NCBI GenBank assembly: GCA_002470165.1
Contig: DKNF01000065.1
Span: 1-30,182, forward strand
Length of the DNA stretch: 30,182 nucleotides
Origin: Betaproteobacteria bacterium UBA7395
Lineage (GTDB): Bacteria > Pseudomonadota > Gammaproteobacteria > Burkholderiales > Rhodocyclaceae
Direction of reading: 5' to 3'
In this document: positions 8,633-27,464 of the stretch, one piece after another
Layout: every line of letters begins with the position of its first letter
Position numbering within the stretch: the first letter of the stretch is position 1
The notes under the pieces: generated by a model
The model's input: the letters and a program-made list of their open reading frames with translations, nothing else
The model's database searches: none
Told to the model about the DNA's origin: nothing
Translations under genes and position numbers: made by a program

Positions 8633-9001
8633 TCAAACCAGCCACGCCCGCAAGCGAGCGGCCAGCGCCGTCCAGTCAACCGGCTTGGACAGATGACGGA
8701 GGCCCAGCCTTGAAGCAGCGTCGAAAAATGCCGCGTCCTCGCGCCCGCTCAACAACACGATTGGCAGTTCCGGCTCGCACCGCCGGATAGTCTCGGCAAG
8801 TCGCAAGCCGTCAATACCCGGCATTTCTACGTCAAGCACGACGATGTCGAAACTGCCGCCGGTGCCGTAAGCCGCCAGTGCCGCCTCGCCATCCGGAACA
8901 TAGCGCAAGGCGAACCCCGGCGCGGAGAGGACAACGCCGAACATCAGCCCCATGGTCGGATCGTCGTCCGCCGCCAGTACCCGACATACACGTTCGCTCA
9001 T
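8633..9001 (-). CDS. Single-domain response regulator (CheY-like receiver)
   Basis: A 122-residue stand-alone receiver domain with no output domain. Acidic pocket ADDDP is at residues 11-15, the phosphoacceptor Asp57 sits in [13 protein letters not shown], a Ser lies in VLLSGRED and the conserved Lys is in LSKPVDW. The start at 9001 gives [14 protein letters not shown]. The frame is open upstream inside the kinase gene, but that extension is not a domain. The ATG overlaps the kinase TGA by four bases (9001-8998). As the last gene of an HPt-kinase-receiver set it is a likely phosphate acceptor or sink, or it acts by protein contact. Confidence 0.88.
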
Positions 9002-11385: not shown

Positions 11386-11774
11386 GACTGCCCCGGCAAC
11401 TCACAACCCGCTTCCCGCCAGGCTGCATCGGCACTTTTCCACGCCTCCGAGAAGGCAGCCGCAAGATCGGCGCGCAGCTCGACGGGAATATCCACATCCT
11501 CGCCGGCAATTCGCTGCAGCAGCAACTTTTCCAGGCGCTCGGCCAGCGCGGAAAGCCGCATCGCACCGACATTCGCCGCCGCACTCCGGATCGCATGCAC
11601 ACACCGACGCTCGGCTTGATCGTTGCCATGTACATCAAGCCAGGCATTTTCCCATCCTGAAAAATGATGAACAAAAAAGCCGACCGCCTGCCACCACAAC
11701 TCGGGACGATCCAGCATGCGCGCTACGGCGTCCCTCACATCGAAGCCTTCCAGTTCCTGAGGTATCAGCATCAT
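11382..11774 (-). CDS. Stand-alone histidine phosphotransfer (HPt) protein
   Basis: A 130-residue helical protein. [24 protein letters not shown] (residues 59-82) matches the HPt motif HxxKSxxxxxGAxxL, with His60 as phosphorylation site; the usual Lys is Arg here. It would pass phosphate between receivers. The operon's kinase already has an HPt domain, so this is a second one and could feed another receiver such as the divergent OmpR-type regulator. It ends in a four-base overlap with the kinase gene. No strong Shine-Dalgarno is seen; ATGs at 11774 and 11771 are both possible. Confidence 0.8.
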
Positions 11775-11846
11775 GGACTTAGCACCGCCAGCCGTTTAAG
11801 AGAGGATCATTTTCCCTCGCCGGCAAAAAACTTGGTTGAAAAAAGG

Positions 11847-11867
11847 TAAAACCCCCGAACGCCGGGG
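11847..11867 (-). terminator. Minus-strand intrinsic terminator/attenuator-like hairpin upstream of the HPt operon
   Basis: On the minus strand CCCCG (11867-11863) and CGGGG (11857-11853) form a stem with a five-base loop, followed by GTTTTACC and then a run of T (around 11845-11840). It lies in the 183-base divergent spacer between the HPt gene and the OmpR-type gene, so no known minus-strand gene ends there. It could attenuate transcription entering the HPt operon from a promoter nearer 11900. The structure is seen; the role is inference. Confidence 0.4.
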
Positions 11868-11957
11868 CTTGCCTCCTCTCGTCCATTGAACAACGGCCTG
11901 CGCACTTCCTTTTACAATGCATTACAATCATTTCCATCGAGCATCTTTACCCCTCCC

Positions 11958-12668
11958 ATGAATCAGACCGCACTGATCGTAGAAGATGACCCCGGCACCC
12001 GCCATGTTGTCAGCGCCACCCTTGGTACAGTGGGGATCGGCAGCATTTTCGCCGAAAATGGCGCCGCCATGTGGCAACAGCTCGATCAAAACCCCGACGT
12101 GGTGATCCTCGACCTGAGCCTCCCCGACGCGGACGGACTCGAACTCCTCAGGCAGCTGCGCCAGCACTCCGAGATACCGGTTCTGATTCATTCGACGCGC
12201 TCCGACGAAATCGAGCGCATCATCGGTATCGAGATCGGCGCTGACGATTTCCTGCCCAAGCCTTGCAACATGCGCGAACTGCTCGCCCGTACCCGTGCGC
12301 TGCTCCGACGCAGCCAGCTACGTAGTCAGACGGCGGTTTCGCGGGCAGATTTCAAGCGTATGCGTTTCGGGCACTGGACGCTGGACACCGCTGCCCGGGA
12401 ACTGCTGAACGGCAACGGCGAACCCGTATCGATCGGCGTTTCCGGTTTTTCCCTGCTGATGGCATTTCTTGAGCACCCGTTCGAACCCCTGTCCCGGGAA
12501 TGCCTCTCCCGCGTCCTCAAACGCGAGTACATCCCTTACGACCGGATCATCGACGTCCATGTCAGTCAAATCCGGCGCATTCTGGGCAAACAGGCCGACG
12601 GCAGCAGCTTCATCAAGACCTTGCGCTCGCAAGGCTATGTGTTTGTCTCCCAGGTCGATCTAACCTGA
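11958..12668 (+). CDS. OmpR/PhoB-type response regulator
   Basis: A 236-residue two-domain regulator. The receiver covers residues 1-120 (LIVEDDPGTR acidic pocket, Asp52 in VILDLSLPDADG, Thr/Ser in IHSTRSDE, Lys in FLPKPCN). A C-terminal winged helix (about 135-235) carries RIIDVHVSQIRRIL and FIKTLRSQGYVFV, the recognition-helix and wing signatures of the OmpR family. The ATG at 11958 starts right at the receiver; an in-frame TTG at 11886 would add 24 unrelated residues and is not favoured. It has no kinase partner on its own strand and faces the HPt/kinase operon head to head, so it may be one output of that phosphorelay. It ends at a strong terminator. Confidence 0.9.
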   Translation: MNQTALIVEDDPGTRHVVSATLGTVGIGSIFAENGAAMWQQLDQNPDVVILDLSLPDADGLELLRQLRQHSEIPVLIHSTRSDEIERIIGIEIGADDFLPKPCNMRELLARTRALLRRSQLRSQTAVSRADFKRMRFGHWTLDTAARELLNGNGEPVSIGVSGFSLLMAFLEHPFEPLSRECLSRVLKREYIPYDRIIDVHVSQIRRILGKQADGSSFIKTLRSQGYVFVSQVDLT

Positions 12669-12746: not shown

Positions 12747-14618
12747 TCAGCGTGCCAGTCGATGGCAACCGCCGACAGTATTACCCACGCAAGGGGTGGA
12801 GCTTTCGCGGTTGATCAACCACTTGCCATCGACCTTGATCATCTCAAGCGTCTTCATGACACGGTCGTTGAAGATGTTCGAGCGATAGGTCTGCTCAAAC
12901 TCGGCAAAGGCCCGTTCCTCGCCATCCATACGTACCTGGAGCTTGTCGACGGTGACCGAGATGCGCTCGCGCGGCGAGATCCGGGCGCGACGCAACTGGT
13001 CCCAGTCCTCGCGGGAAAGACCGCCATCCGGCGTGAAGGTCGGCGCATAGAAACCGGTGTAGGCCGAGTAATCCTTTGCCGACCAGGCCTCAGCCCAGGA
13101 ACGTACCCGATTTTCGATATCGCCAACGGCTGTCTGCGGCACCAGTTCCTGCGGGGCCTGCGCCACCACCGGCGAACGCGGCGCGGTCATCATCTCGCGA
13201 GCCTTGGCATCGAGCGCATCGCGCGACGAGGCTTGCTGGGTGACGGCATCGGTCGGGCACAGCGAGGCCGCATCGACTTCGGCCAGTTCGCCAGCGGTCG
13301 GTGTATGGGTATCAAGCTTCTGCAGCCCCATGAATTCCAGCAGCGACCCCATGCCGGCGTAGGTGCGCAGATAGGCCAGCGTCAGGTCGGTATCGGCATT
13401 GACTGCCGCACGCCGCGCCGACAGCAATTCGTTCTCGGTATCCAGCAAGTCGAGCAAGGTGCGTTGGCCGACATTGAACTGGTCACGATAGGCATTGCGC
13501 GTCTTTTCCAGCAAGGCGACCTGGGTTGCCAGGTAGTTGGACTGTTCCTTCAGTCGCAGCACGTCGTTGTACGCGATCAGCAACGTTTGGCGCGTGTCGC
13601 GACAGGCCTTTTCACGCATTTCCACGGCCATGTGCTTGCGCTCCATGAACTGACGCTCACGCGCCCGATCCGAACCGCCGTTGAACAGGTTCCAGCTGAA
13701 CACCACCTCGGCCACGTTGTAATCGCGGTCGCCGCTGACACCCTGATAGTTGGAGGTGCTCTCGGTTCTGGCCCGCAGATCCACTCGGGGCGAGTAGGCC
13801 GAACGCTTGGCGGCGATGTCGTGCTGGGCGGCTTCGATATTCTCGATCGCCGCATGCAGCGTCGGATTGCGCTTGTGCAGGATGTCCAGTGCCGCCTTCG
13901 GGCTGGCCGGCAGTGCACTACCGACCAGGCTGGGCGGAACGATCACGTCGGGCGGCATGTTGCCGACCAGACGCTGATAGCGCGCGGATACATCATGCAG
14001 GTTGGCGGTTTCCGTGGTCAGGTTGACTTCGGCCAGGGCCAGACGGCTGCCCGCCTGTTCCAGATCGACGCGACGCCCGACGCCCGACGCCGTACGCGCC
14101 TTCAACTGCTCATGCGTGGCCTTGTGGCGGATGTAGTTGTCTTCGGCGAGATCGACCAGGAAACGGTAGCGCAGCACATCGAGATAGGCGCGGCTGGCTT
14201 CCAGGGCGACATTCTCGGAGGCTTCCAGCAGTTCGTAGTAACGGACCAGACGCGCCTTGTCGAGTTTGCGAACCTCGCTGCGCGTGGCAAACCCGTCGAA
14301 CACCATCTGGTTCAGGGTCAGTGCGTAACCGCGCCGGGTATAGTCGTCCTTGACGTTCGTCGGCGGGGTCTTCAGGCTCTCGCGGCCGGTACCGGCCGTC
14401 AGGTCAACCCGCGGAAAATAACCGCCGCGTGCCACCCCGATTTCCTCGTCGGCCGCCTTGTAGTTACGCCACTTGGTCGTCACTTCCGGGCTCTTCAGCA
14501 CCGCTTGCTGGGCAATCTCGCGCAGGGCGTCGTGCACTTGTTGCGTACCGGCTTCCTGAGCGTGCGCGACGTTGGCAAACAGGCTGCCGATCAGGAAAGG
14601 GAGGATGGCCATTTTCAT
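12747..14618 (-). CDS. TolC-family outer membrane protein with C-terminal NTF2-like domain
   Basis: A 623-residue protein. Signal peptide MKMAILPFLIGSLFANVAHA precedes about 420 residues of TolC-type helical repeats (RNYKAADEEIGVARGGYFPRVDL and, in the second repeat, HDIAAKRSAYSPRVDLRAR, with NLFNGG strands). A linker follows, and residues 501-610 form an NTF2/SnoaL-like fold: IENRVRSWAEAWSAKDYSAY, FYAPTF, REDWDQLRRARI, FEQTYRS, WLINRES. TolC proteins are usually about 450 residues, so this is a fusion or long variant. It is the third gene after the adhesin and HTH genes, three bases from the latter, and is the likely outer membrane channel (LapE/AggA role) for the adhesin. The NTF2-like tail would be periplasmic and could bind peptidoglycan or partner proteins; this is inference. 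Confidence 0.9.
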   Translation of the reverse strand: MKMAILPFLIGSLFANVAHAQEAGTQQVHDALREIAQQAVLKSPEVTTKWRNYKAADEEIGVARGGYFPRVDLTAGTGRESLKTPPTNVKDDYTRRGYALTLNQMVFDGFATRSEVRKLDKARLVRYYELLEASENVALEASRAYLDVLRYRFLVDLAEDNYIRHKATHEQLKARTASGVGRRVDLEQAGSRLALAEVNLTTETANLHDVSARYQRLVGNMPPDVIVPPSLVGSALPASPKAALDILHKRNPTLHAAIENIEAAQHDIAAKRSAYSPRVDLRARTESTSNYQGVSGDRDYNVAEVVFSWNLFNGGSDRARERQFMERKHMAVEMREKACRDTRQTLLIAYNDVLRLKEQSNYLATQVALLEKTRNAYRDQFNVGQRTLLDLLDTENELLSARRAAVNADTDLTLAYLRTYAGMGSLLEFMGLQKLDTHTPTAGELAEVDAASLCPTDAVTQQASSRDALDAKAREMMTAPRSPVVAQAPQELVPQTAVGDIENRVRSWAEAWSAKDYSAYTGFYAPTFTPDGGLSREDWDQLRRARISPRERISVTVDKLQVRMDGEERAFAEFEQTYRSNIFNDRVMKTLEMIKVDGKWLINRESSTPCVGNTVGGCHRLAR

Positions 14619-14621
14619 GAT

Positions 14622-14936
14622 TCAGGCGGCTCCCATGTGCAGCGAAGCAGACGGTTTGGCGCGACGGATGCGCGGCTTGCCAGAAATATCCTGCAGGGTT
14701 TCCACGGATTTCCCGTTACGCAGTTCCTTGAGCAGGCGTTCGGCGCCCTTGGTCTCGCCGTAGGCAAGATGGATCAGCAGCAAGACCTGTTTGGGAATGG
14801 TTCGCCCCGTTTCATAGCGTGATCCCCCGGACTGGGTGACCAGAATGCGTTTCCAGAAGTCGGACTGTTTCATCCCCATGCGATCGCGAAGGTCGCGGAT
14901 GTCCTGGCCGGTGGTGCAGATCAGTACTTTGTCCAT
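14622..14936 (-). CDS. Small helix-turn-helix (XRE-like) protein
   Basis: A 104-residue cytoplasmic protein. Residues 10-60 look like a lambda-repressor-type HTH: DIRDLRDRMGMKQSDFWKRI, then SGGSRYETGRTIPKQV where 'S..E.GR..P' is the typical recognition-helix and following segment. The C-terminus is basic (KPRIRRAK). The start at 14936 is set by GGGAG upstream. It sits 25 bases after the adhesin gene and three bases before the TolC-family gene on the same strand, so it is probably cotranscribed with them and may autoregulate adhesin production. No target site was identified. Confidence 0.8.
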   Translation of the reverse strand: MDKVLICTTGQDIRDLRDRMGMKQSDFWKRILVTQSGGSRYETGRTIPKQVLLLIHLAYGETKGAERLLKELRNGKSVETLQDISGKPRIRRAKPSASLHMGAA

Positions 14937-14961: not shown

Positions 14962-17900
14962 TTAATCGACCAGCAGTTTTCCCTGCTGGAGCAAGTTCTG
15001 GATGATTTGGCTATTACCGGTGAATTGACCGCCTTCACTGAAATCGACGCCCTCGATGACGATTTGCTGCGTGACCGCGGCCCCATTGCCGAGAGGGTTG
15101 ATATGGATGGTCGTGCCGCTGGCGCTGGTTTCGAAATGCAGGTATTGCGTCAGATTGCCGGGCGCGAAACCGTCGTGGTACTCGCCTTGCAGCAGATCCC
15201 GCAGATCGATGATGTCGCCGCCAGCACCAACCGGTGCGTGCAGGTTGAAATCCATGATCCGGTCGATGGCGGGTGTGTCTACCGTGCCCTGGTCACCGAA
15301 TTCCCAGCGGAAAACATCGCTGCCATCGCCGCCCCAGAGCAGGTCGTTGCCCTTGCCGCCGATCAGCAGATCGTTGCCGTTGCCAGCGTGAAGCGCGTCG
15401 TCACCGGCGCCACCTCGCAATAGGTCGCTGCCATCGCTGCCGATGAGTACATCGTTACCGTCATGGCCGTAGAGGCGGCTGCCTTCCTGGGTGGCGGTCA
15501 GCGTGTCGTCCTGTGACGAGCCTTCGATGATCCGTCCGTTCTGATCCGGGGTGCTGAGCAGACCGACTTCTGCCAGCGAACCGACGCTGCTGGTGCTGCT
15601 CAGTCCATTGCTGTCGGTGGCGGTGATGCTGGTGGCGCTGAGAACGCTGACGTCGAGCAGCGACTGCTCGTAATGCACGGTGCCGAGAAGCTCGTTCAAT
15701 GCCAGGTTGTCGATGGTGCCACCATCCTTGGCCGTGATGACCAGGGTCGAACTGGGCAGGATCAGACCGAGCAGACCCGGATTGTTGATGATCGCGAGAT
15801 TCAGCCCCAGTTCGTCGGCCAGCGCATGCGAGGCCTTCAGGTGGTAGGGGCCGAGGTTGATCAGCGAGCGGTAGGAGATTTCCAGCTTGGCGATATTGTT
15901 GTTGGCATCGACGGCGGTAAACCGCGTGCGTGTTCCCAGATCGATCAGGTCAAGCGCATCGAGCCCGATGATGCCGAGCAGGTTGTTGCTGGTTTCGATG
16001 CCGGTGACCGGGGCGACATTGACGGTCGATGGTGTGCCGGTGCCGATGAACTGCAACGAGCCGGTGGCCTGGTCGCCATCGTTGTCGACCAGGGTGAATT
16101 CGACCTGGGTCGTGCTGCCGCGAGGCGGTGCTTCGGCGACGTGGTATTGATAGCTGCCATCGCAAAGGCCGATGCGGATGGTTTCGCCGGCGGTGGTCTG
16201 CACGGTCAGTGTCCGGGCGACCGGGTCGAATTGATAGCCGCTGACCGTCGCCGAAGTGCCGCTGACGGCGATGGTGTTGGCCTGGGCGTCATAGGCAAAG
16301 AGGTAACCGCCGATGGCGAGCGCGGCGACATGTCCGCCGTCCGCACCGAAGCCTCCCAGGCTGCCGCTGAGCGTGGTCGGGCCGCTGACTGTCGCCGCGA
16401 AGACGCAGGCCATTTCGTTGAAATCGCCAATCCAGTAGCCGTTCAGGTCGGATTCTGCCTGACCGTCCCAGGCAATCGGGTTGAGCTGGTTGGGGATGAT
16501 GATGGAACGTGGCCCGACACCGATGGCCTGCGAGGTCATGTCGTTGTCGTTGAGGAACTGGCGCCAGGCGCATTCCTCGTCCCGGTCGATGCCGTCGCCG
16601 AGGAAGGGGTCGAACTGTCCCGGATAGTTGAAGGGATGTCCGCTGCTGTCGATGGTCGGTTCGCCATCGGAGAAGAAGTACGAGACATTCTGCCCGCCGG
16701 CGATTTTGCCGTCGCTGGTAAACGCCTGCTGGGCTGTGGCCAGGGCGGCGTCGTAGTTCGAAGCTTCATTCCCGGCTTCCAGGCCGGCGAGCAGCAGGCG
16801 TGCCTCGTCGATGGTCAGCCAGCGTTCGCCCAGTGCATGTCCGTCGTTACCGAAGACCACCAGACGAACCTTGACGTCGCCCAGCGCGTCGTAGCGGTCG
16901 AGCAGGTCGCGGATGGCGATCTTGGCCAGATCCAGTCGGCTCAATTCCTGGCCGGCCAGGTCCTTGACGCCGGTGCGCTGATTCATGCTGGCGGAGAGGT
17001 CGAGCATGATCATCAGGTTGGTATCGACACCGTCGCCATCGCCGATCCGGATCGCCTGGTTGTTGGCCAGCGGCGCGTCGTCCTCGATGTGCACCGTCAG
17101 GCTGGCTTCGGTTTGCTGGCTGCCGTCGTTTGCCCGGATCGTGAATTGCAGGCTTTCGATGTTTTCACCGTTGCCGCTTGGGTGATCGATGGGTTTCAGC
17201 AGGCGGACTTCATAATTTCCCTGGCTGTCGATCCTGGCGCAGATGACTTCCGGACCGAGCGCGCCGGCACGACCGACGAGCGGGGAGTCTTCAGTTCCCG
17301 CCCCCGACCAGACAATCTGGACGCCACCGGAATAGAGCGCCTGGCTCGGCGGGGCAAGGCACAGGGATAGCGCGGCGTTGCCGTTGACGATGCCGATGGT
17401 GCCGCTGGCAGTCGGTTCATCGGTGTTGTCGTGCGGATTGCCCTCGCGGTCCGGAATGGCGTGGCGCAAGCCTTCTTCCGAGACACTGACTTCGGCATCG
17501 ACAATGATCAGGTTGGTCCAGAAAAGCGCTTGCGCTTCGCCGCGTGGCGTCGTGTTACCGGCCGGATCGCGGATTTCAGCCTCGACGGTAATCGTGGTGC
17601 CGTGCGCCTGGGGCGGGAAATGGGTGGTGACGAAGCCGGCTTGCTTGTCGGTGGCGGTGATCTGGATTTCCCGGGTCAGTTGGCCGGAAGTGACGACAAC
17701 GATGTCGCCGATATCCACCTTGTCGCCATCGAAGCGAACCTGAACGTCCACTTCGCCGTTCAGTTCGGCAGCGCTGATCCGGCCGTCACCGTTTGCATCC
17801 TCGGTGATTTCGACCAGTGGGGCATTGCCTCCGTTGGGCGCCAGGGTGTCGATGGTGGCGCCGGCATGTCCGATCTTGCCAAGATTGCCGGCCGGGTCGC

Positions 17901-19995
17901 GGACCTGTGCGGAGACGTCGATTCTCTGACCTTCACCCGGGTTGTCGAGTTCAAATGCCACGCTGCCACGAATCACGTCGCTCTGGGTCATCACGATGGG
18001 GGCGAGCACCTGACCGTTGACGGTGACCAGTAGTTGATCGCCGGCGCGGATGGTCGGGGGGAGGGTGATGCTGACGTCGATCTTTCCCTGCAATTCGGTG
18101 GCGTTGATCCAGCCGTCACTGTTCCTGTCCTCAAGGATGAAGACCTGGGGCGCTCCCGGTTCGCCCAGCATCAGGCGGGCGCTGGCTTCGGCCGGTCCGG
18201 CAGAATTGCCGGCGATGTCGCGGATCGTGGCGGTTGTGACAAAGGTTGTGTCGTCCGCCGTGGGGTTGAATTTGACGTCAAGGTGACCGGCGGCGATGTC
18301 GGCTGCGGTCAGCGTGAACACCTGGTCGACATTGCCGCTACCGGACACCGTCAGCGAATTCCCGACGGCTGCACCGGCAGGAAGCGTTACCCGGACATCG
18401 ATGTCGTTTTCGCGCAGTTCTTCCCGGTTGATGAAACCATCGCCATTCCGGTCTTCGGTGATGGCAACGCTCAGACCGCTGAACACGGTGGTGTCGATGA
18501 TGGCCGAAGCTTCGCCGGTGGGGCTGGTGTTGCCGGCCAGGTCACGGATGAAGGCGGTGACCGTGACGGTTTGCCCGTCGCCTGGATTTGGAATGCCACC
18601 GATATCGACGTGACCGTTGCGGATATCCTGCTGGGTCAGCAGGATCGGCAGGCGGGCGTTGCCATTGACGCTGACGAACAGCCATTCTCCGGCGCGGGCG
18701 CCGGAGGGCAGACCGATGCGGGCATCGATGTCGCCTTGAAGCTCGGCCGCATTGATGTAGCCGTCGCGATTGAGGTCGTCCAGCAGGGTGACGCGCGGCG
18801 CACCGATGTCGCTCGTTTCGATGATGGCGGCAGCGCTGGCCTCATTGGACAGATTTCCGGCCGGGTCGCTGACCTGGGCGCGAACTTCGAGTTTGCTGCC
18901 ATTGCCGGGCGGATCGAGTTCGATTTCCACGCGGCCAGCGTCGATATGGGCCTGGGTCAGTTCGATGGTGATCGTCGAATGCCCAGTCGCCCAGATGGTC
19001 AGCAGATCGCCGGCAATCGCTTCCGGCGGCAGGGTGAATTCAACGTCGACCTTGCCCTGCAATTCCGCCTTGTTGATGTAGCCATCGCCATTGATGTCCT
19101 CGGTGATGGTGACGACCAGTCCCTGCAGGTTGCTGGTGTCGATCTTTGCCGCTGCGCTGCCCCGATCCGAGGCATTGCCGGCCGGGTCGATCAGGTAAGC
19201 GTCGACGACCAGCACGCTGCCATGCGGCGGGATGGGAAAATCGGTGGTGATGTAGCCATTGGCCTTGTCGGCGGCGTTGATCACGATATCGCGGACGATC
19301 GTGCCGTCCGAGACGCGTACGGTATCGCCGACATCGACCAGATCGCGATTGAACTCGACCCTTACATCGGCATTGCCATTGGCTTCGGCGCGGTTGATGA
19401 AGCCGTCGTTGTTGGCATCTTCAACAATGATGACCCGGGGAGCAGCGCCGCCGTTGGGTGGTGTGTCATCGTCCGGAAGCAAGCTTGCGGCGGTCTCTTC
19501 CGGGATGAGCAGTGCCTCGTCCGAGAGCGCGAGGCCGGATCGGTCGCCCGTTCCGAAATTGTAGGCCGTTGCCGTGCCGCCGATTTCCTCCAGGATGCGT
19601 GCGAATTCGATGAAGCTGTGACCGCCTTCGCTGGTGGCGCCTGCTTGCCCTGCGGCCGGTGCTTCTTCGTCCAGTAGTTCGTCGAGCGGTGCATTGCTGG
19701 CAAGGGCCTGGGTAATCTGGCGGAAGCCGTCGTTGTCGGTGCGTATGGCGCTATCGTCCGGCGAACTGGTGCCGGCGACCTCATTGTCAAAGACGACGGT
19801 CTGACTGTTGCCAAGCCGGATCTCGCGGCCGTCGCTCGCGGCCAGAACGATATCGGCGTTGGCGCCGGTGACGACTGTTTCGCCGGGGAGAAGCCTGTCA
19901 CCGGCCTTGAGTTGCCGGCTGGATCCATTTTTCGTGATGGCAAATGCGCTGCCGTTCAGCGAGACCACCTGGGCGATAGGGTTGGTTTGTGACAT
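14962..19995 (-). CDS. LapA-like giant RTX adhesin with retention module
   Basis: A 1677-residue type I secreted surface adhesin. Residues 1-65 form the retention-module start (MSQTNPIAQVVSLNGSAFAI...). PAAG at 113-116, after DELLDEEA, fits the TAAG/PAAG di-Ala site cut by the periplasmic protease LapG. Six Ig-like repeats of about 108 residues span 183-826, each with an EF-hand loop. A T1SS-143-like domain lies at about 830-975 (ends VHIEDDAP). A VWA domain begins at DTNLMIMLDLSASM with MIDAS residues DLSAS at 999-1003. RTX nonapeptides lie near 1510-1560, and the last 110 residues resemble the type I secretion C-terminus. The start at 19995 has GAGGA upstream; an upstream start at 20055 is unlikely. 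No LapD, LapG or dedicated ABC/adaptor genes are in the window. Family placement is by domain pattern. Confidence 0.93.
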   Translation of the reverse strand: MSQTNPIAQVVSLNGSAFAITKNGSSRQLKAGDRLLPGETVVTGANADIVLAASDGREIRLGNSQTVVFDNEVAGTSSPDDSAIRTDNDGFRQITQALASNAPLDELLDEEAPAAGQAGATSEGGHSFIEFARILEEIGGTATAYNFGTGDRSGLALSDEALLIPEETAASLLPDDDTPPNGGAAPRVIIVEDANNDGFINRAEANGNADVRVEFNRDLVDVGDTVRVSDGTIVRDIVINAADKANGYITTDFPIPPHGSVLVVDAYLIDPAGNASDRGSAAAKIDTSNLQGLVVTITEDINGDGYINKAELQGKVDVEFTLPPEAIAGDLLTIWATGHSTITIELTQAHIDAGRVEIELDPPGNGSKLEVRAQVSDPAGNLSNEASAAAIIETSDIGAPRVTLLDDLNRDGYINAAELQGDIDARIGLPSGARAGEWLFVSVNGNARLPILLTQQDIRNGHVDIGGIPNPGDGQTVTVTAFIRDLAGNTSPTGEASAIIDTTVFSGLSVAITEDRNGDGFINREELRENDIDVRVTLPAGAAVGNSLTVSGSGNVDQVFTLTAADIAAGHLDVKFNPTADDTTFVTTATIRDIAGNSAGPAEASARLMLGEPGAPQVFILEDRNSDGWINATELQGKIDVSITLPPTIRAGDQLLVTVNGQVLAPIVMTQSDVIRGSVAFELDNPGEGQRIDVSAQVRDPAGNLGKIGHAGATIDTLAPNGGNAPLVEITEDANGDGRISAAELNGEVDVQVRFDGDKVDIGDIVVVTSGQLTREIQITATDKQAGFVTTHFPPQAHGTTITVEAEIRDPAGNTTPRGEAQALFWTNLIIVDAEVSVSEEGLRHAIPDREGNPHDNTDEPTASGTIGIVNGNAALSLCLAPPSQALYSGGVQIVWSGAGTEDSPLVGRAGALGPEVICARIDSQGNYEVRLLKPIDHPSGNGENIESLQFTIRANDGSQQTEASLTVHIEDDAPLANNQAIRIGDGDGVDTNLMIMLDLSASMNQRTGVKDLAGQELSRLDLAKIAIRDLLDRYDALGDVKVRLVVFGNDGHALGERWLTIDEARLLLAGLEAGNEASNYDAALATAQQAFTSDGKIAGGQNVSYFFSDGEPTIDSSGHPFNYPGQFDPFLGDGIDRDEECAWRQFLNDNDMTSQAIGVGPRSIIIPNQLNPIAWDGQAESDLNGYWIGDFNEMACVFAATVSGPTTLSGSLGGFGADGGHVAALAIGGYLFAYDAQANTIAVSGTSATVSGYQFDPVARTLTVQTTAGETIRIGLCDGSYQYHVAEAPPRGSTTQVEFTLVDNDGDQATGSLQFIGTGTPSTVNVAPVTGIETSNNLLGIIGLDALDLIDLGTRTRFTAVDANNNIAKLEISYRSLINLGPYHLKASHALADELGLNLAIINNPGLLGLILPSSTLVITAKDGGTIDNLALNELLGTVHYEQSLLDVSVLSATSITATDSNGLSSTSSVGSLAEVGLLSTPDQNGRIIEGSSQDDTLTATQEGSRLYGHDGNDVLIGSDGSDLLRGGAGDDALHAGNGNDLLIGGKGNDLLWGGDGSDVFRWEFGDQGTVDTPAIDRIMDFNLHAPVGAGGDIIDLRDLLQGEYHDGFAPGNLTQYLHFETSASGTTIHINPLGNGAAVTQQIVIEGVDFSEGGQFTGNSQIIQNLLQQGKLLVD
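15315..15471 (-). repeat. RTX nonapeptide repeats within the adhesin
   Basis: The encoded protein has consecutive GGxGxDxLx-type units (YGHDGNDVL, RGGAGDDAL, HAGNGNDLL, IGGKGNDLL, WGGDGSDVF). These bind Ca2+ and fold outside the cell, and are typical just before a type I secretion signal. Confidence 0.9.
17518..19449 (-). repeat. Six Ig-like repeats each starting with an EF-hand loop
   Basis: Units begin near residues 188, 294, 402, 510, 618 and 728 of the adhesin (spacing 106-110). Each has a 12-residue loop fitting the EF-hand pattern D-x-N-x-D-G-x-I-x-x-x-E, for example DINGDGYINKAE, and each ends in a 'DPAGN / DLAGN / DIAGN' turn plus an Ile/Ala-rich strand. Units 1 and 6 share features (TDK/ADK..G..TT.FP...HG) that units 2-5 lack. 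Confidence 0.88.
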
Positions 19996-20341: not shown

Positions 20342-22030
20342 ATGCGACTTGAGTCACATCTGCTGGATGAAGCGAAGGCGTCGATACTGGCGGTGGATGA
20401 CACGCCGGCCATTCTTCAGTTGCTCGAACTGGCATTGGGGATCGATTACGAGATCGTTCCCGCGGAATCGGGGCAGGCGGCGCTTGATGCCTTTCGTCAG
20501 CGTCAGTTCGATCTCGTCATGCTTGATCTGATGATGCCGGACATGGATGGCTTTGAGACCTTGAAACGGCTCAAGGAACTGCCATCCTTCGAGGGGACGC
20601 CGGTCATCTTCCTGACTGCCATGGATGATCTGACCAACGAATGCAGTGCCCTGGAACTCGGGGCGGACGATTACATCACCAAGCCGTTCAAGCCGAATCT
20701 GGTTCGTCTCAGAATCGCCAACATCCTGCACCGGGTCCGTTTGCAGCGTTTGTTGTCGTTGGCCCTGGCCGGGGCCGACCAGGGGTTGTGGTCATGGAAT
20801 CTGGATGGCGGGGTAAGAATTGCTTCTGCCTGGAGCCAGCCCTTGACTGTCGATGGTCAGGTCAAGGCGCTCGAGTTCAAGGATTGGCGGGAGGTTTGCC
20901 ACCCCGATGATGTACCTGCCGTAAGCGAAGCCAGTCGCGACTATTTGTCCGGTCTCAAGCCGGCGTTCGAAATCGATGTTCGCCTGCGGCGCCTCGGCGG
21001 GACGTGGACCTGGTTCAATATCCACGGCAAGTTCAGCGGTGCCGAGATGATCATTGGCACCTATCGCAACGTCGAGGCGCGCAAGCAGGCTGAGTTGAAA
21101 CTTCGCGAGAGCGAAGAGCGCTTGCGCCATGTCATGGATGCGACCGGCGAAGGTATCTGGGACTGGGCCGTCCAGGAACCGATCGTTCGGCATAACGCTG
21201 CCTGGTGTCGCTTGTTCGGTCTGGGCGAGGAAACGGCCAATCACCCGGTGGCCGACGTGCTGGCCATGATCAATCCAGATGACCGGCCCGAGGTTGAACG
21301 CCTGCTGCACGAATGCCTGGTCAACGATCAGCCGTTTTCTGCCGAGTACCGTGTACGTCACGTCGATGGATGGGATGTCTGGGTACAGGCACGCGGCAAA
21401 GTCGTCGAGCGTGCCGCTGACGGTTCCCCCTTGCGCATGGTCGGGGCGTTGCAGGATATCTCGGAGAAAAAGCGGATCGAGGAAGAGTATCGCCGTCTGG
21501 CCCTGTTCGATACCTTGACCGGCCTCCCCAATCGCCGCTTGCTGATTGATCGCCTGACCCAGGCCATCGAGCAGAATCGCCGCAATGCGACGCTGGGGGC
21601 GCTGATGTTTATCGATATGGATCGTTTCAAGACGCTCAACGACACCTTGGGCCATGATTACGGCGACATGCTGCTGATCGAGGTGGCTCGCCGCTTGTCG
21701 GGCGCTGTCCGGAAAATGGACACGGCGGCCCGTCTCGGCGGTGACGAATTCGTCATCATGCTGCCGCAGTTGTCGGCGGATGCCGTCATTGCCATGAAAG
21801 ACGCCATGACCGTGGCCAACAAGGTACTGCGCAATCTGGGGGTGCGCTATCAACTGGGCAGTCATGGGCACGACAGCACGCCGAGTATTGGCCTGACCTT
21901 ATTCTCAGGGGCCCATGGCGAGACTGTTGATGGCATTCTCCGGCGCGCCGATGCAGCGATGTACGAGGCCAAGCGGACCGGCCGGAATCGTATCTGCGTC
22001 GATCAGGCATTCGCCCCGGCAAACGCTTAG
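20342..22030 (+). CDS. REC-PAS-PAS-GGDEF diguanylate cyclase
   Basis: A 562-residue cytoplasmic enzyme making c-di-GMP from GTP. It has an N-terminal receiver (ILAVDDTP, Asp62 in LVMLDLMMPDMDG, Lys in YITKPFKP), then two PAS/PAC regions (about 135-255 with CHPDD, and 260-390 ending GALQDISEKKR). The catalytic domain starts at DTLTGLPNRRLL, with the intact GGDEF at 466-470 and inhibitory I-site RKMD at 457-460, so it should be active and product-inhibited. The ATG at 20342 has GAGGTG upstream; a TTG at 20330 would fall inside that site. It is divergent from the adhesin gene and ends convergently with the export operon, sharing four bases. The receiver places it under phosphorelay control; the partner kinase is unknown. 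Confidence 0.93.
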   Translation: MRLESHLLDEAKASILAVDDTPAILQLLELALGIDYEIVPAESGQAALDAFRQRQFDLVMLDLMMPDMDGFETLKRLKELPSFEGTPVIFLTAMDDLTNECSALELGADDYITKPFKPNLVRLRIANILHRVRLQRLLSLALAGADQGLWSWNLDGGVRIASAWSQPLTVDGQVKALEFKDWREVCHPDDVPAVSEASRDYLSGLKPAFEIDVRLRRLGGTWTWFNIHGKFSGAEMIIGTYRNVEARKQAELKLRESEERLRHVMDATGEGIWDWAVQEPIVRHNAAWCRLFGLGEETANHPVADVLAMINPDDRPEVERLLHECLVNDQPFSAEYRVRHVDGWDVWVQARGKVVERAADGSPLRMVGALQDISEKKRIEEEYRRLALFDTLTGLPNRRLLIDRLTQAIEQNRRNATLGALMFIDMDRFKTLNDTLGHDYGDMLLIEVARRLSGAVRKMDTAARLGGDEFVIMLPQLSADAVIAMKDAMTVANKVLRNLGVRYQLGSHGHDSTPSIGLTLFSGAHGETVDGILRRADAAMYEAKRTGRNRICVDQAFAPANA

Positions 22031-23478
22031 CGTATCGCCCACATGCCGAGTTTGCCGGTACTTGCCGCCAGTTGCAGGCGGGCGCTGAGCCAGCCGGAAA
22101 GCGCCTCGATGCGGCGCTGCTCGGCATTGGCCACGGCACTCTGGGCGCTCAGCAGTTCGAGGATGTTGCCGACGCCGGCGCGAAATCGTCCTTCGGCGAC
22201 TTCATAGGAACGACGCGCGCTGTCGAGCAGGGTCTGGGCGGCTTCGATATGGGCCTTCCGGGTATTGAGTGCCTGGTAGCTTTTCCAGACGTCGAGCATG
22301 ACCTGTTGCTCCGTCTTTTCCAGCTCGGCCTGCAGTTGTTCAACCTGACTGTTGGCGGCACGAACCTTGTAGCCGCGCCCAAAGCCCTCGAACAGCGGAA
22401 TGCTCAACTGCATGCCGACGATGTTGTCGCGAAAGACTGCACCGGTGGCTGGATAGCCGGAAATGGGAATGTGCTTGTCCTGCCGGCGTTCGCTGGCTTC
22501 TGCAGAAAACCCGAGCACCGGCCTGCCTTCGGCGCGAACGGCCCGAACCCGGGCCCGGGCGGCGTTTAGTTCGGCGCGGGCGGCTTGCAGCGCAGGGTGA
22601 TGGCTGCCGGCTTCCTCGAACAGGTCGTCGATACTGACGCCGATGCCGGTTTCGGGCAGTTTTTGGGTCCTCTCTGGCAGGAACAGGCGGGTCTTCGGGG
22701 ACAGACCGATGGCCGTGGCCAGGCTGCCGGTGGCATTCTCCAGTTCGCCCTGGGCGCTGACCCGTTTGAGCCGGGCATCCGACAGGGCGACGGCAGCTTG
22801 CAGTTTGTCGGTCAGCGCGCCGGCACCGGCGGCATGTTTGGCAGTCGTTGCCTCCAGATTTTTCCGGGCGGAGTTTTCGGCTTCTTCGCTGGCGCGGAGT
22901 ACGGCCTGTGCGGTCTGTACATCGAAATAACGCTGTGCCGTTTCCAGCAAGGTGCGCTGAATTGTCTGATCGTGGCTGGCGTTGGCCGCATCCAGCAAGG
23001 CCGCTGCCTGCTCCACATTCGCCCGGCGCAAGCCGGTGTCGGCAATGGTCCAGCTGAGTTTGAGACTGGCGGTGCGGGTGCGTGGCTGGGTTTTGGCGTC
23101 CAGCACATCGTAGGGTTTTTCGTAGGTATTGCTGGTCGTCTGGCCTAGATAGCCGAGATTGGCGCTCAGGTTCGGCAGATAGGCGGATCTGGCAACCCCG
23201 AGCTGAGCCGCCTGGATTTTCGCCTGTGCCCAGGCAGCCCGGCTCTGCGGACTCTGGCACAGGGCGCGTTCGATGGCCTCGTGCAGTTGCAGGCTGCCCT
23301 TGGGTTCGTCGAATGCGCAGATGATGGGCGTTTCATCATCAAGCAGAGGCAGTGCGGAGGGGGGCAGGCGGCTTTCGGTCAGGAGCAGGTCGGGGGGATT
23401 GGCGTGGGCAACCCCGGAGCACGCAAGCAGCAGGCAGCCAAACAGGCAGCCGATCCGCAATGCAGTTTTTCCTACCAT
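22027..23478 (-). CDS. TolC-family outer membrane channel of the peptide export operon
   Basis: A 483-residue outer membrane factor of normal size. The signal region MVGKTALRIGCLFGCLLLACSGVAHA allows cleavage after AHA; LLAC could act as a poor lipobox. TolC repeats follow: AQLGVARSAYLPNLSANLGYLGQ in the first half, and RAEGRPVLGFSAEA with SIPLFEGFGRGYKVRAA in the second. The start at 23478 is set by GAGGTGGG and overlaps the ABC transporter end by seven bases. The frame is open far upstream inside the ABC gene, but that part is Arg/His-rich shadow. It would complete a tripartite type I system with the two genes before it. Its TAA overlaps the convergent cyclase TAG within TTAG (22027-22030). 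Confidence 0.92.
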   Translation of the reverse strand: MVGKTALRIGCLFGCLLLACSGVAHANPPDLLLTESRLPPSALPLLDDETPIICAFDEPKGSLQLHEAIERALCQSPQSRAAWAQAKIQAAQLGVARSAYLPNLSANLGYLGQTTSNTYEKPYDVLDAKTQPRTRTASLKLSWTIADTGLRRANVEQAAALLDAANASHDQTIQRTLLETAQRYFDVQTAQAVLRASEEAENSARKNLEATTAKHAAGAGALTDKLQAAVALSDARLKRVSAQGELENATGSLATAIGLSPKTRLFLPERTQKLPETGIGVSIDDLFEEAGSHHPALQAARAELNAARARVRAVRAEGRPVLGFSAEASERRQDKHIPISGYPATGAVFRDNIVGMQLSIPLFEGFGRGYKVRAANSQVEQLQAELEKTEQQVMLDVWKSYQALNTRKAHIEAAQTLLDSARRSYEVAEGRFRAGVGNILELLSAQSAVANAEQRRIEALSGWLSARLQLAASTGKLGMWAIR

Positions 23479-25634
23479 TGCCCACCTCGGGCGATACGCT
23501 CGAGATCGAGCTCTCTGGCCGGGATGTCGCGGATGATCCGCCCCTGGTCGAGAATGACCACCCGGTCTGCGCTGGCAATGGTTTCCGGACGATGGGCGAC
23601 GATGATGCGGGTGATGTTCAGTCCCTTGATTGCGGTGTTGACCCGCTTTTCGCAGGAAATATCGAGGTGGCTGGTCGCCTCGTCGAGGAACAGGATGCTT
23701 GGCCGTTTGTACATGGCCCGCGCCAGCAGGACGCGCTGCTTCTGACCACCGGAAAGCGCGGTGCCCATGTCGCCGATCAGGGTGTTGTAACCCATCGGCA
23801 TTTCCATGATCTCGTCGTGGATGGCGGCAAGCTTTGCGCATTCCTCGATGCGGGCGGGCTCGGGATGATGGTCGAAGAAGCTGATGTTGTCGGCGATCGA
23901 CCCGGCAAACAGGACGTCGTCCTGAAGAACGGTACCGACCATCTCGCGCAGGGCGCCGATACCGACCTGATTGACGCTGGTGCCACCGATCAGGACATCG
24001 CCCTCGGTCGGAGTCCGGATGCCGAGCATGGTGCTGATCAGGGTGGATTTGCCACAGCCCGAGGGGCCGATGATGGCGATCGATTCGCCCGGATGTACGG
24101 TCAGGTCGATGCCATCGAGTACCCACGGTTCGCCATCGGCGTAGCGGTAGCGAAGCGCCTTCAGTTCGATGGAGGCTTCCGGAGTGCCATGACTTCCGGG
24201 CGTTGAAATCGATTTTTCGGCATGGCTTTCCGGGGTCGCGAAGACGATATCGGCCAGACGTTCGCCCTGCAGTTGCAGCATCTTGATTTCGACCAGCTTG
24301 TCGATCAGGGCGCTGACGCGTGAGTCGAACTGATCCTTGTAGGCGCTGAACGCCATCAGCGCGCCGACGGTAAAGTGCCCGTCAAGAATGAGCTTGGCGC
24401 CGAGCCAGATGACAAGGATACGTTCCACACCGAACAGCAGGCCGTTGGCCAGGCGATAGAAAATCTGCAGTTTCTGGTTGCGCAGATCGGCATTGATCTG
24501 GTCGACGAGCAGGCTCAGCCAGGTCGAACGTCTTTCTTCCTGGCGCTGAAACAGCTTGATGCTGCGAACACCGCGTACGGTTTCGAGAAAATGGCTCTGT
24601 TGCTTGGCTGCATGGATGATCTGTTCTTCGGTGGCGTTGCGCAACGGCCGGTACCAGAGCCAGCGGACAACGCCGTAGAGCGCCATGGCGCCAACCGCGA
24701 TCCACGCCAGCGGCGGGCTGTAGATGAACATCACGATCAAGGTCACGATGGTCATCGCACCATCGAGAATGCCTTCGACAAAAGCGGTGGTCAGCGTTTT
24801 CTGGATGACATCGATCGAACTGAAACGGGAGACGACATCGCCCAGGTGGCGTTTCTCGAAATACTCGACCGGCAGACGCAGCAAATGGGTGAACACATTC
24901 GCCCGCCACTGGATGTTCAGGGTCGTCGACATATGCATGATGACCCACGAACGCAGTGCCGAAATGCCCTGTTGCATCAGCATCAGCAAACCGAATCCGA
25001 TGGCCAGCGTACTCAGGAGATCCCGGTCGCCGGAGACGATGACGTTATCGATGACCCACTGGAGGAAAAACGGGCTGACCAGGGCAAAGACTTCGAGCGA
25101 TACGGCAAGCAACAGGATCTGGCCGAGCGAGCGGTAGAGGCCGGTGACGTGCCCCATCAACTGGCGCAGCCGGACTCGTTGCTTCAAGGTGACGGCCTTG
25201 AACTCGGTATTCGGCCACAACTCCAGCGCGACGCCGGTGAACTGACCGGAAACCTCGTCGAGCTTCAGCTTGCGCACGCCAAAGGCCGGGTCGTGAATGG
25301 TCACCGTGTTGCGGTCGACCTCCTTGAGTACGACAAAGTGATTGAAGTTCCAGTGCAGGATGCAGGGCAGGCGCAGTTGCGGCAGATCTTCAAGGTCGAG
25401 CTTGATCGGGCGGGTGGCGAGGTTCAGCGACTGCGCCATCTGCATCAGGTGTCCCAGCGTGCTGCCCTTGATCGAGACCAGGAACAGGCGGCGGAGCGTG
25501 GCCAGGTCGGTGCGCAGGCCGTGATAGCCGGCAACCATGGCGATGCTGGCCAGGCCGCATTCGGTGGCCTCCGTTTGCAGGATTTGCGGCAGCTTGCGGC
25601 GCAGGCCGAAGGATAGGTTTTCTAGAAAGGACAT
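23472..25634 (-). CDS. C39-peptidase ABC transporter (bacteriocin-type processing exporter)
   Basis: A 720-residue half-transporter. Residues 1-130 form a C39 cysteine protease domain with Gln20 and Cys26 in LQTEATECGLAS, His99 in NHFVVLKEVD and Asp115 in TIHDPAFG, so the catalytic set is intact, unlike the degenerate domain in LapB/HlyB. Transmembrane helices follow (about 160-430). The ATPase has Walker A GPSGCGKST, signature LSGGQKQRVLLARA, Walker B ILFLDEATS and switch AHRPE. Such enzymes cut substrates after a double glycine and export the mature peptide through an adaptor and TolC. It starts 34 bases after the adaptor gene and overlaps the TolC gene. The likely substrate is the GG-leader peptide at 27116-27331. 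Confidence 0.94.
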   Translation of the reverse strand: MSFLENLSFGLRRKLPQILQTEATECGLASIAMVAGYHGLRTDLATLRRLFLVSIKGSTLGHLMQMAQSLNLATRPIKLDLEDLPQLRLPCILHWNFNHFVVLKEVDRNTVTIHDPAFGVRKLKLDEVSGQFTGVALELWPNTEFKAVTLKQRVRLRQLMGHVTGLYRSLGQILLLAVSLEVFALVSPFFLQWVIDNVIVSGDRDLLSTLAIGFGLLMLMQQGISALRSWVIMHMSTTLNIQWRANVFTHLLRLPVEYFEKRHLGDVVSRFSSIDVIQKTLTTAFVEGILDGAMTIVTLIVMFIYSPPLAWIAVGAMALYGVVRWLWYRPLRNATEEQIIHAAKQQSHFLETVRGVRSIKLFQRQEERRSTWLSLLVDQINADLRNQKLQIFYRLANGLLFGVERILVIWLGAKLILDGHFTVGALMAFSAYKDQFDSRVSALIDKLVEIKMLQLQGERLADIVFATPESHAEKSISTPGSHGTPEASIELKALRYRYADGEPWVLDGIDLTVHPGESIAIIGPSGCGKSTLISTMLGIRTPTEGDVLIGGTSVNQVGIGALREMVGTVLQDDVLFAGSIADNISFFDHHPEPARIEECAKLAAIHDEIMEMPMGYNTLIGDMGTALSGGQKQRVLLARAMYKRPSILFLDEATSHLDISCEKRVNTAIKGLNITRIIVAHRPETIASADRVVILDQGRIIRDIPARELDLERIARGGQW

Positions 25635-25668: not shown

Positions 25669-26937
25669 TCAGAGTTTTCCGGTCAGGCTGAACAGGGGTT
25701 CCAGCACCCATTCATAGAGGCGGCGCGTTTCCTGCAGCACGTCGGCTTCCAGCAGCATGCCGGCCTGTAGCGGGTGTTCTTCGCCGTAAGCCCGGATGGT
25801 TTGCGCGGTCAGGGCCACGGTAATCAGGTACAGGGGTTCGTGGGTCTGGTTTTCAACGCCGGCAGGGAGCAGGGCGGAAATTTCGCCAGCCGGTAGCGCT
25901 GTTCTCGCGACTGAAACGACCTTGCCCTCGGCGTGACCGAATTTCTGATACGGGTAGGCCTGGTAACGCAAACGCACTGCGGCACCCGGCTTGACGAAAC
26001 CGACGGCCCGACTTGGCGCATAGAGCTGTGCTTCGAGGCGGCTGTCGGCTGGGACCACGCTCAACAGCGGGCGCCGGGCATCGGCCATCTGGCCCAGTTC
26101 GCCTACGACCGCAGTGGCTACACCGTCGACCGGGGCGGTAATGGCGATCATTCGGCGCCCCTCGTTCTCGCTCAATTCCTGGCTGGTGCTGGAGATGTAG
26201 CGTTCGATCTGGGCCAGCTGGTTCTGCTGCTTGAGGCGCAGTGCGCCGAGATTTTCCTGGCGCATGGCCAACTCACGACGCAGGGCAATCTGCTCGCGCT
26301 CGATGCTCTTCAGTCGTGCTTGCTGATCGAGCCATTCCTCGTGCTTTTGTTGCTGTTGCTCGCGCGAGATGTAATCCTGTTCGAGCAGGGACTGGTAACG
26401 GCGGCTGGTTTCGTCGGCTAGTCCGACACGCGACCGTTGGCCGTCGAGCAGGCTGTCGACTTTTTCAAGTTCCGCCTGGAGGGCATGGATCTGGCGCCGC
26501 AGCCCTTCCTGTTCTTCCTGTTGCAGGCGGCTCGTCCGCTCCAGTTCCCTTTCCAGGGATTCCTGGCGCGATCCCAGTTGCTCGCTGATGCTGGCCTGTA
26601 CCGATTCCAGGTTACTGCTTTGCCGCTCGCTCGATAGCAGGAAAAGTATTTCGCCGGCACGGACGCGCTGTCCTTCGCTCACCCGCTTTTCCTGGATGAT
26701 GCCGGCTTGTGGGGCATAAACGCGTAGCAGACCGCCGTTCGGTACCAGGTGTCCGGTTACGCTGCTGCGCTTGGTATAGCTGCCAAAAGTGAATAACAGC
26801 ACAATCGACAGGGCGCAGATTGCAGCAACGATGCTCAGTATCCGGTAACTGAGAGGGCGGATCAGCAGGATGTCGCCGAAGGATTTCGGCTTCTGGGCCT
26901 CTAGGGCTGCTTGTCTGAATAGGGGCTGCGAGGCCAT
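25669..26937 (-). CDS. HlyD/CvaA-type membrane fusion protein
   Basis: A 422-residue inner-membrane-anchored periplasmic adaptor. A short cytoplasmic tail ending RPLSYR precedes one transmembrane helix (about residues 32-52). The lipoyl half VYAPQAGIIQEKRVSEGQRV is next, then a long Gln/Glu/Arg-rich coiled coil (about 105-255), the second lipoyl half ITAPVDGVATAVVGELGQ and a barrel domain. The layout is that of CvaA/MchE and RaxA adaptors used with C39 ABC exporters. No strong Shine-Dalgarno is seen before the ATG. It is the second gene of the peptide operon, 178 bases after the precursor. Confidence 0.93.
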   Translation of the reverse strand: MASQPLFRQAALEAQKPKSFGDILLIRPLSYRILSIVAAICALSIVLLFTFGSYTKRSSVTGHLVPNGGLLRVYAPQAGIIQEKRVSEGQRVRAGEILFLLSSERQSSNLESVQASISEQLGSRQESLERELERTSRLQQEEQEGLRRQIHALQAELEKVDSLLDGQRSRVGLADETSRRYQSLLEQDYISREQQQQKHEEWLDQQARLKSIEREQIALRRELAMRQENLGALRLKQQNQLAQIERYISSTSQELSENEGRRMIAITAPVDGVATAVVGELGQMADARRPLLSVVPADSRLEAQLYAPSRAVGFVKPGAAVRLRYQAYPYQKFGHAEGKVVSVARTALPAGEISALLPAGVENQTHEPLYLITVALTAQTIRAYGEEHPLQAGMLLEADVLQETRRLYEWVLEPLFSLTGKL

Positions 26938-27064: not shown

Positions 27065-27103
27065 ACGGGGCGGGAGGAGGTCGTGTTCAGGGGCCCGCCC
27101 CGT
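27065..27103. terminator. GC-rich stem between precursor peptide and export genes
   Basis: ACGGGGCGGG (27065-27074) pairs perfectly with CCCGCCCCGT (27094-27103) around a 19-base loop, 13 bases after the peptide stop codon. On the minus strand the stem is not followed by T, so it is more likely a 3' mRNA stabiliser or partial terminator that lets the peptide be made in excess of the exporter. On the plus strand a TTTT follows. Confidence 0.55.
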
Positions 27104-27115
27104 TTTCCTGGCTTC

Positions 27116-27331
27116 TTAGCGGCAGGAATTACCCAGCAGACCGCCGAGTAGACCGCCCAGCAGGCCGGTCACGGTGCCAACCAGACCCTGAACCAGGCCG
27201 ACAACCGGGGTCAGCAGGCCGCCAACGAGGCCGAGAACCGGGTTCAGAACGCCACCAAGCAGGCCACCCAGATCCAGGATGCCACCGGAAACTGCTTCGA
27301 TTTCGGTCTTGCTAAGCTCTTGAATTGCCAT
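27116..27331 (-). CDS. Double-glycine-leader bacteriocin/microcin-like precursor peptide
   Basis: A 71-residue peptide. The leader MAIQELSKTEIEAVSGG (1-17) fits the C39 leader pattern: acidic/hydrophilic, hydrophobic positions at Leu6, Ile11 and Val14, and GG at the cut site. The predicted 54-residue core (18-71) is almost all Gly, Leu and Val with a few Pro, Thr and Asn and no lysine. It is built of 11-residue units (VLNPVLGLVGG, LLTPVVGLVQG, LVGTVTGLLGG) and ends GNSCR, with one Cys. AAAGGAG lies seven bases before the ATG. It is the first gene of the adaptor-protease/ABC-TolC operon. It is probably a secreted membrane-active peptide of class II bacteriocin type. A signalling or surface-assembly peptide is an alternative. 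I recognise no named family for the core. Confidence 0.88.
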   Translation of the reverse strand: MAIQELSKTEIEAVSGGILDLGGLLGGVLNPVLGLVGGLLTPVVGLVQGLVGTVTGLLGGLLGGLLGNSCR

Positions 27332-27464
27332 GTTGCTACTCCTTTAACGATTGAAAATGCCAAGTTGATGGCGGGTATTGCCCCGGGATGGGGTAATTCT
27401 TGGCGCATTTCTGCAATCACTGCCGCTTTATTTAATAAAACGCGCAGAACGCGAACTGTTTGCC

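Follow-up and report, generated by a model that had tools for sequence, protein, structure and literature searches.

A double-glycine (GG) leader combined with a C39 exporter, HlyD and TolC represents the usual layout of class II microcins. In the Cdz system of Caulobacter, CdzC and CdzD are described as contact-killing glycine-zipper proteins, and their authors predict mostly single-peptide relatives, often located near adhesion genes (Garcia-Bayona 2017, PMC5380434). In Synechococcus elongatus, the double-glycine proteins EbfG1-4 enable biofilm formation, and their efficient secretion needs the Cys of the peptidase-exporter PteB (PMC4997328; PMC9981879). Here, we compare with these systems a gene for a 71-amino-acid double-glycine peptide, located in the window (the whole stretch of 30,182 nucleotides that was analysed) together with genes for its predicted export and for a surface adhesin.

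The peptide gene, its relatives and its core

The peptide gene occupies positions 27116..27331 of the minus strand and is recognised from its open reading frame, its relatives and the selection acting on it. Its product begins with a leader of 17 residues, MAIQELSKTEIEAVSGG (27281..27331, minus strand), which ends in VSGG with a predicted C39 cut site after Gly17, and continues in a 54-residue core (27119..27280, minus strand). The Shine-Dalgarno sequence AAGGAG lies 7 bases ahead of the ATG (27339..27344, minus strand), and a scan for a sigma-70 promoter found none. The division into leader and core and the good ribosome binding site, both proposed in the earlier note, are thus borne out. Leader positions V14, G16 and G17 are invariant in an alignment of 38 sequences, the end of the leader at residues 14-17 has the G[G/A/S] form that serves as a Cdz-like criterion, and the peptide length falls within the Cdz-like range of 60-151 residues. 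Gly, Leu and Val constitute 76% of the core, in agreement with its initial description as rich in these residues, and its charged residues are limited to a single Arg and a single Asp, with Lys, His and Glu all absent. Pro31 and Pro42 are situated inside the core, with the zipper unbroken on the C-terminal side of Pro42. The C-terminus reads NSCR, while many relatives end instead in GGLLG, GGL or similar. The host genome, which is 83.6% complete, contains a single copy of the peptide and two weak matches (E 0.02 and 0.16) in longer frames.

A search with the single sequence retrieved 41 relatives at E <=0.01 and a profile search 119 at E <=0.001, all of the latter without a Pfam domain, with about 8000 candidates scored of about 5.8 billion proteins in each case. 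The family is spread over several groups of Proteobacteria, the named relatives belonging to Azonexus, Dechloromonas, Thiobacillus, Gallionellaceae, Aquariibacter, Solimonas, Methylocystis, Methylorubrum, Acidiphilium and further taxa, and their UniRef names are mostly 'hypothetical' and in a few cases 'Bacteriocin'. The earlier note recognised no match of the core among class II bacteriocins or microcins; a comparison with Pfam and NCBIfam at E <=0.1 gave 0 matches, and the family is without a name in either collection. The further suggestion of a new, putatively membrane-active peptide family holds in so far as no description of the family, or of its link to adhesins, was found in the open-licence papers searched. 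It does not hold as to novelty of kind, since type I-exported glycine-zipper peptides are already known from Cdz (PMC5380434), and the peptide is a variant of this known exported kind and not a wholly new class.

The peptide gene of Azonexus hydrophilus DSM 23864 differs from that of the window by 3 synonymous substitutions and encodes the identical peptide. For relatives with a divergent protein sequence, dN/dS amounts to 0.09-0.37, with 0.09 for locus L017 and 0.15 for locus L015, or 0.105 and 0.19, respectively, when the core alone is considered. The gene is therefore under purifying selection rather than showing the random codon change that would have spoken against a peptide, and a chance ORF is ruled out by the relatives, the synteny and dN/dS. 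With the host counted in each set, carriers amount to 7 of 199 in a genome set from the bacterial family (4 of the 7 having another core type) and to 8 of 399 and 6 of 369 in further genome sets, counts that include several weak matches or other core types. None of the four other genomes of the same genus in the 199-genome set carries the peptide. The scan of named genomes yielded 15 loci, and the weak matches L029-L034, L036 and L055-L062 were set aside as long repetitive ORFs, other GG peptides or probable chance matches. In one such case (L029/L036; genome G384, contig C2 near 7000), a frame of 242 residues exhibits repeated TVTGLVGGL-type stretches and prolines, and no leader of the kind found in the peptide family was seen in it.

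One of the structural features of the core is its regular spacing of residues. In 41 cores (of 42 sequences, one having been dropped as no leader matched), residues repeat at lags 4, 7, 11, 15, 18 and 22 with identity z-scores of 18, 11, 21, 6.5, 7.4 and 9.5, respectively, values that are inflated by the kinship of the cores. Lags 2, 9, 13 and 20 are avoided in the same set, and at lags 4, 11 and 15 the core of the window, taken by itself, scores higher than every one of 300 shuffles. Because of the peaks at lags 4, 7, 11, 15, 18 and 22 and the deficit at lag 2, the periodicity, as read from sequence, is that of a predicted helix in which an 11-residue repeat places small residues on one face, i.e. 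a glycine zipper, and not that of a beta strand. AlphaFold likewise models a single helix over residues 21-69, with a mean pLDDT of 77.6 and about 93 for residues 41-60. AlphaFold tends toward helices for Leu/Gly-rich sequences, and hence this model adds little weight to the periodicity. The helical periodicity provides a testable prediction for an extracellular glycine-zipper assembly.

The export operon and the stem-loop behind the peptide gene

Downstream of the peptide gene, in the same direction and within 10 kb, lie genes for an HlyD-type periplasmic adaptor of 422 amino acids (25669..26937), a C39 peptidase-containing ABC exporter of 720 amino acids (23472..25634) and a TolC-type outer-membrane channel of 483 amino acids (22027..23478, scanned as a longer frame), all on the minus strand. 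In the C39 domain of the exporter, the motifs of the active-site Cys, His and Asp are intact. The best NCBIfam match of this exporter remains below its cut-off (NHLM_micro_ABC1, 512.6 versus 853.3 bits), and thus it resembles peptide exporters without falling into a named subfamily. Among 20 exporter rows, a list that leaves out incomplete exporters and has two genomes and one species represented twice, the Cys-His-Asp motifs are present in 19, including that of the window, and in the remaining one (L026) the called gene has a truncated start.

Export genes are found beside the peptide in 13 of the 15 named-genome loci, as far as the contigs reach, the exceptions being L025 (Streptomyces) without an export set and L026 (Sinomicrobium) with a distant exporter. 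The usual order is peptide, HlyD, C39 exporter and channel, with variants in which the peptide gene is divergent or placed behind the channel gene, and some loci contain several peptides (three each in L015 and L023, four in L021). The initial placement of the peptide at the head of a dedicated export operon applies to the window copy, but elsewhere members also occur away from an exporter, either beside an adhesin (L037) or alone (L039).

Related exporters are also associated with other peptides. In L042-L045 (G133, G049, G175 and G036), a C39 exporter that is 60-61% identical accompanies a similar leader, MAIREL...VSGG, with a different core of the type TFCLLGGLxSFKLxLxSSLF or similar, and hence exporters of this group handle cores of different types. 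In Sinomicrobium oceani (Bacteroidota; L026, 7040-8171), three GG peptides precede a C39 exporter, and two of them have a similar Gly/Leu/Val/Thr repeat core with an unrelated NGG leader, a likeness that possibly reflects convergence.

Directly 3' of the peptide stop codon, a GC-rich stem-loop is located at 27065..27103 (minus strand), and the 129 nt around it have a more stable predicted fold than 195 of 200 shuffled versions. A hairpin scan of 12 loci, window included and run without a shuffle control, revealed stems of -19 kcal/mol or stronger 3' of the peptide in 10 of the 11 other loci, with only a weak stem in L019. A terminator-like T run follows the stem in four loci (L018, L024, L027 and L038), and the L015 stem contains one compensatory pair in which both sides are changed and pairing is kept. 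Given this stem-loop behind the peptide gene, more peptide than exporter is probably produced.

Linkage to LapA-type adhesins and Tad genes

Further along the window, a LapA-type adhesin of 1677 amino acids is encoded (14962..19995, minus strand), with a retention module and a T1SS C-terminal domain over cut-off and RTX repeats. A second TolC-type channel gene lies beside it (12747..14618, minus strand; TIGR01844 over cut-off), and between the two is an RsaL-like HTH gene (14622-14936, minus strand; PF22495), a candidate regulator. A convergent gene encodes a REC-PAS-GGDEF diguanylate cyclase (20342..22030, plus strand), and a similar gene is present at this place in L013, L015, L017 and L019. 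Positions 8998-12668, beside the adhesin genes, contain a gene for a hybrid histidine kinase with an Hpt domain, a small ORF and a gene that resembles a response regulator in BLAST comparison.

Of 12 carrier genomes, 8 have an adhesin gene and a peptide gene no more than 9 kb apart, where 0.12 would be expected, or 8 of 14 if two short contigs (L020 and L023) are counted as misses. In four genomes, the peptide gene is directly upstream of the adhesin gene on the same strand at a distance of up to 1 kb, compared to 0.0034 expected. Both distances were picked after the loci had been seen, and these expectations treat genomes as independent. The count of 12 leaves out L013 (the species of the window), L020 and L023 (contigs below 6 kb) and L025, L026 and L042-L046 (other core types), and retains L024, a short contig, since its adhesin is visible. 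The eight linked cases represent three layouts, and the chance of reaching three was estimated at 0.0002. In the window, L015, L017 and L019, the adhesin gene follows the export operon behind the convergent GGDEF gene, whereas in L018, L024 and L027 an extra peptide gene, divergent from the export operon, stands ahead of the adhesin gene and on its strand. In genome G023 (one contig, 100% complete), a peptide gene is situated 105 bp before an adhesin gene (L037), the surrounding 20 kb lack exporter genes, and an exporter with another peptide is found at a separate site. The same genome contains, at L039 (8994-9272), a GG peptide with the same leader type that stands alone, with no export genes or adhesin in 20 kb.

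In five genomes, Tad genes and a peptide gene are separated by at most about 4 kb, namely at L015, L019, L022 and L038, where ten proteins were profile-checked, and at L041, which belongs to the L016 genome and was assigned by gene-call similarity. L016 and L022 have Tad genes and no adhesin, and in L014 and L021 neither is in reach. The adhesin family is common, being present over cut-off in 84 of the 199 genomes from the bacterial family versus 15 of 18 genomes in a second search, where one species is represented by two genomes and four of the 18 have a different core type. A peptide gene of this kind is present in only 3 of 28 adhesin upstream regions of up to 3 kb each, taken from the adhesin-bearing genomes of that second search, where three of the 28 adhesins are linked at 7-9 kb, beyond the reach of this test, and G023 provides a fourth case, found separately.

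Since the window has no ABC gene for the adhesin, sharing of one exporter by peptide and adhesin was considered and dropped. The host possesses a LapB-type exporter (TIGR03375, 1015 bits versus a cut-off of 693) about 2 kb from a second retention adhesin (G000:C24:586-5274), and the second exporter of G023 gives only a weak C39 match and, by inspection, may be LapB-like. Thus, nothing shows a common pathway for peptide and adhesin.

Proposed function and comparison with known systems

The reading that we tentatively prefer, at somewhat less than even chances, is that the exported glycine-zipper peptide remains at the cell surface or close to it and contributes to attachment or to the formation of biofilm, a role for which EbfG1-4 provide a precedent. 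A site of action on the cell surface is probable because the genes of its relatives are often near surface-adhesion genes. In such a scheme, the peptide gene would be translated, probably in excess over the exporter owing to the stem-loop, the C39 domain would cut after Gly17, and HlyD and the TolC-type channel would carry the core out. The core would then form a long hydrophobic helix with a small-residue stripe every 3-4 positions, which could pack against itself into surface-bound assemblies. The LapA-type adhesin or Tad pilus encoded nearby may be the partner of these assemblies, and the diguanylate cyclase is a possible regulator. A more specific version, which we regard as rather unlikely, is that of a new attachment factor, in which a C39-exported, purely helical glycine-zipper peptide would build a cross-alpha rather than cross-beta assembly on the outer surface and would, for instance, anchor or cluster a LapA-type retention adhesin as its partner. 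Against attachment stand the patchy distribution, as seen for bacteriocins, the loci L014 and L021 without an adhesin or Tad genes, the loci L016 and L022 with Tad genes alone, the wide occurrence of LapA-type adhesins in any case, the few adhesin upstream regions that contain a peptide gene (3 of 28) and the separate exporters in the host and G023.

Next in rank, and a possibility that deserves weight even if we consider it doubtful, is a Cdz-like contact-dependent bacteriocin that would aggregate on the producer surface and permeabilise touching neighbours, with adhesins or pili bringing the cells together. The peptide resembles the published criteria in its 71 amino acids, GG leader and type I system within 10 kb. 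It may also do so in its glycine zippers, of which the criteria ask for one or two that are flanked and not interrupted by Pro or charge, and in its C-terminus, which should be short and polar or charged. The authors note adhesion genes near many Cdz-like systems and immunity genes that are harder to identify, and their search filtered out matches with zipper-interrupting prolines, whereas the core here contains prolines (PMC5380434). The multi-peptide loci L015, L021 and L023 and the UniRef name Bacteriocin of some relatives would also agree with killing, and patchy distribution together with the likeness to Cdz-like criteria favours it, but peptide genes also occur away from any exporter (L037 and L039) and no immunity candidate was seen near the peptides.

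As to such a candidate, gene calling gave no small membrane ORF over 10 kb on the covered side of the window peptide or over 2.9 kb on the other side, and among the matches listed no gene families recur beside the peptides beyond the export cassette, adhesin, regulators and Tad. Small membrane-type genes in 16 loci turned out to be Tad parts, distant genes, a frame on the strand opposite the adaptor gene (L021) or genes confined to one locus, such as L014 6024-6425. Gene calling relied on a codon-usage script which a very small gene could escape and which missed the peptide genes at L027 1720-1902 and in L026. No small membrane immunity gene of the CdzI kind was recognised in the regions covered, and an unlinked or very small one may exist. 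The missing immunity gene and the linkage to LapA-type adhesins and Tad point to surface attachment no less than to a bacteriocin role. Attachment or cohesion is placed slightly ahead of contact killing because of the lack of recognised immunity genes, the adhesin-adjacent peptides without an exporter and the purifying selection.

A diffusible class II microcin or bacteriocin released to the medium is improbable. The GG leader, C39 exporter, HlyD and TolC would suit it, but the core is near neutral and extremely hydrophobic and no immunity gene is recognised, hence a freely diffusing form seems unlikely. Even less credible is a self-lysis peptide promoting stationary-phase lysis, similar to the gonococcal Nap peptides. 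Naps are described as bacteriocin-like with no detectable antimicrobial activity (PMC11798529), and missing immunity would fit, yet they are cationic and the core is not, and no other link was found. Least probable is an exported signalling peptide. GG peptides serve communication besides competition (PMC7018657) and several loci have a sensor-kinase-like gene nearby, but the mature core consists of 54 repetitive, very hydrophobic residues and no dedicated receptor was recognised.

If the peptide acts with adhesins, exporters of a type that is commonly taken as a sign of a bacteriocin can function in betaproteobacterial attachment, and labelling every GG peptide 'bacteriocin' misleads. If contact killing is true, this would be a betaproteobacterial Cdz-like case tied to a defined adhesin.

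Viewed against the described systems, of which Cdz and EbfG are the nearest, the peptide has the leader type and exporter set of class II microcins with C39 exporters, and differs from them in its extreme hydrophobicity and in having no recognised immunity gene. With Cdz, when compared by published criteria rather than by the CdzC/D sequences, it shares a small glycine-zipper protein and a type I exporter. Unlike Cdz, it has core prolines and no recognised CdzI-like immunity gene, and its genes are also found outside exporter loci, linked to LapA-type adhesins. With EbfG1-4 and PteB, EbfG being compared by description, it shares small GG proteins, a peptidase-transporter with a catalytic Cys and several peptides per operon, but unlike EbfG1-3, which are described as amyloid with predicted cross-beta hotspots (PMC9981879), its periodicity fits a helix.
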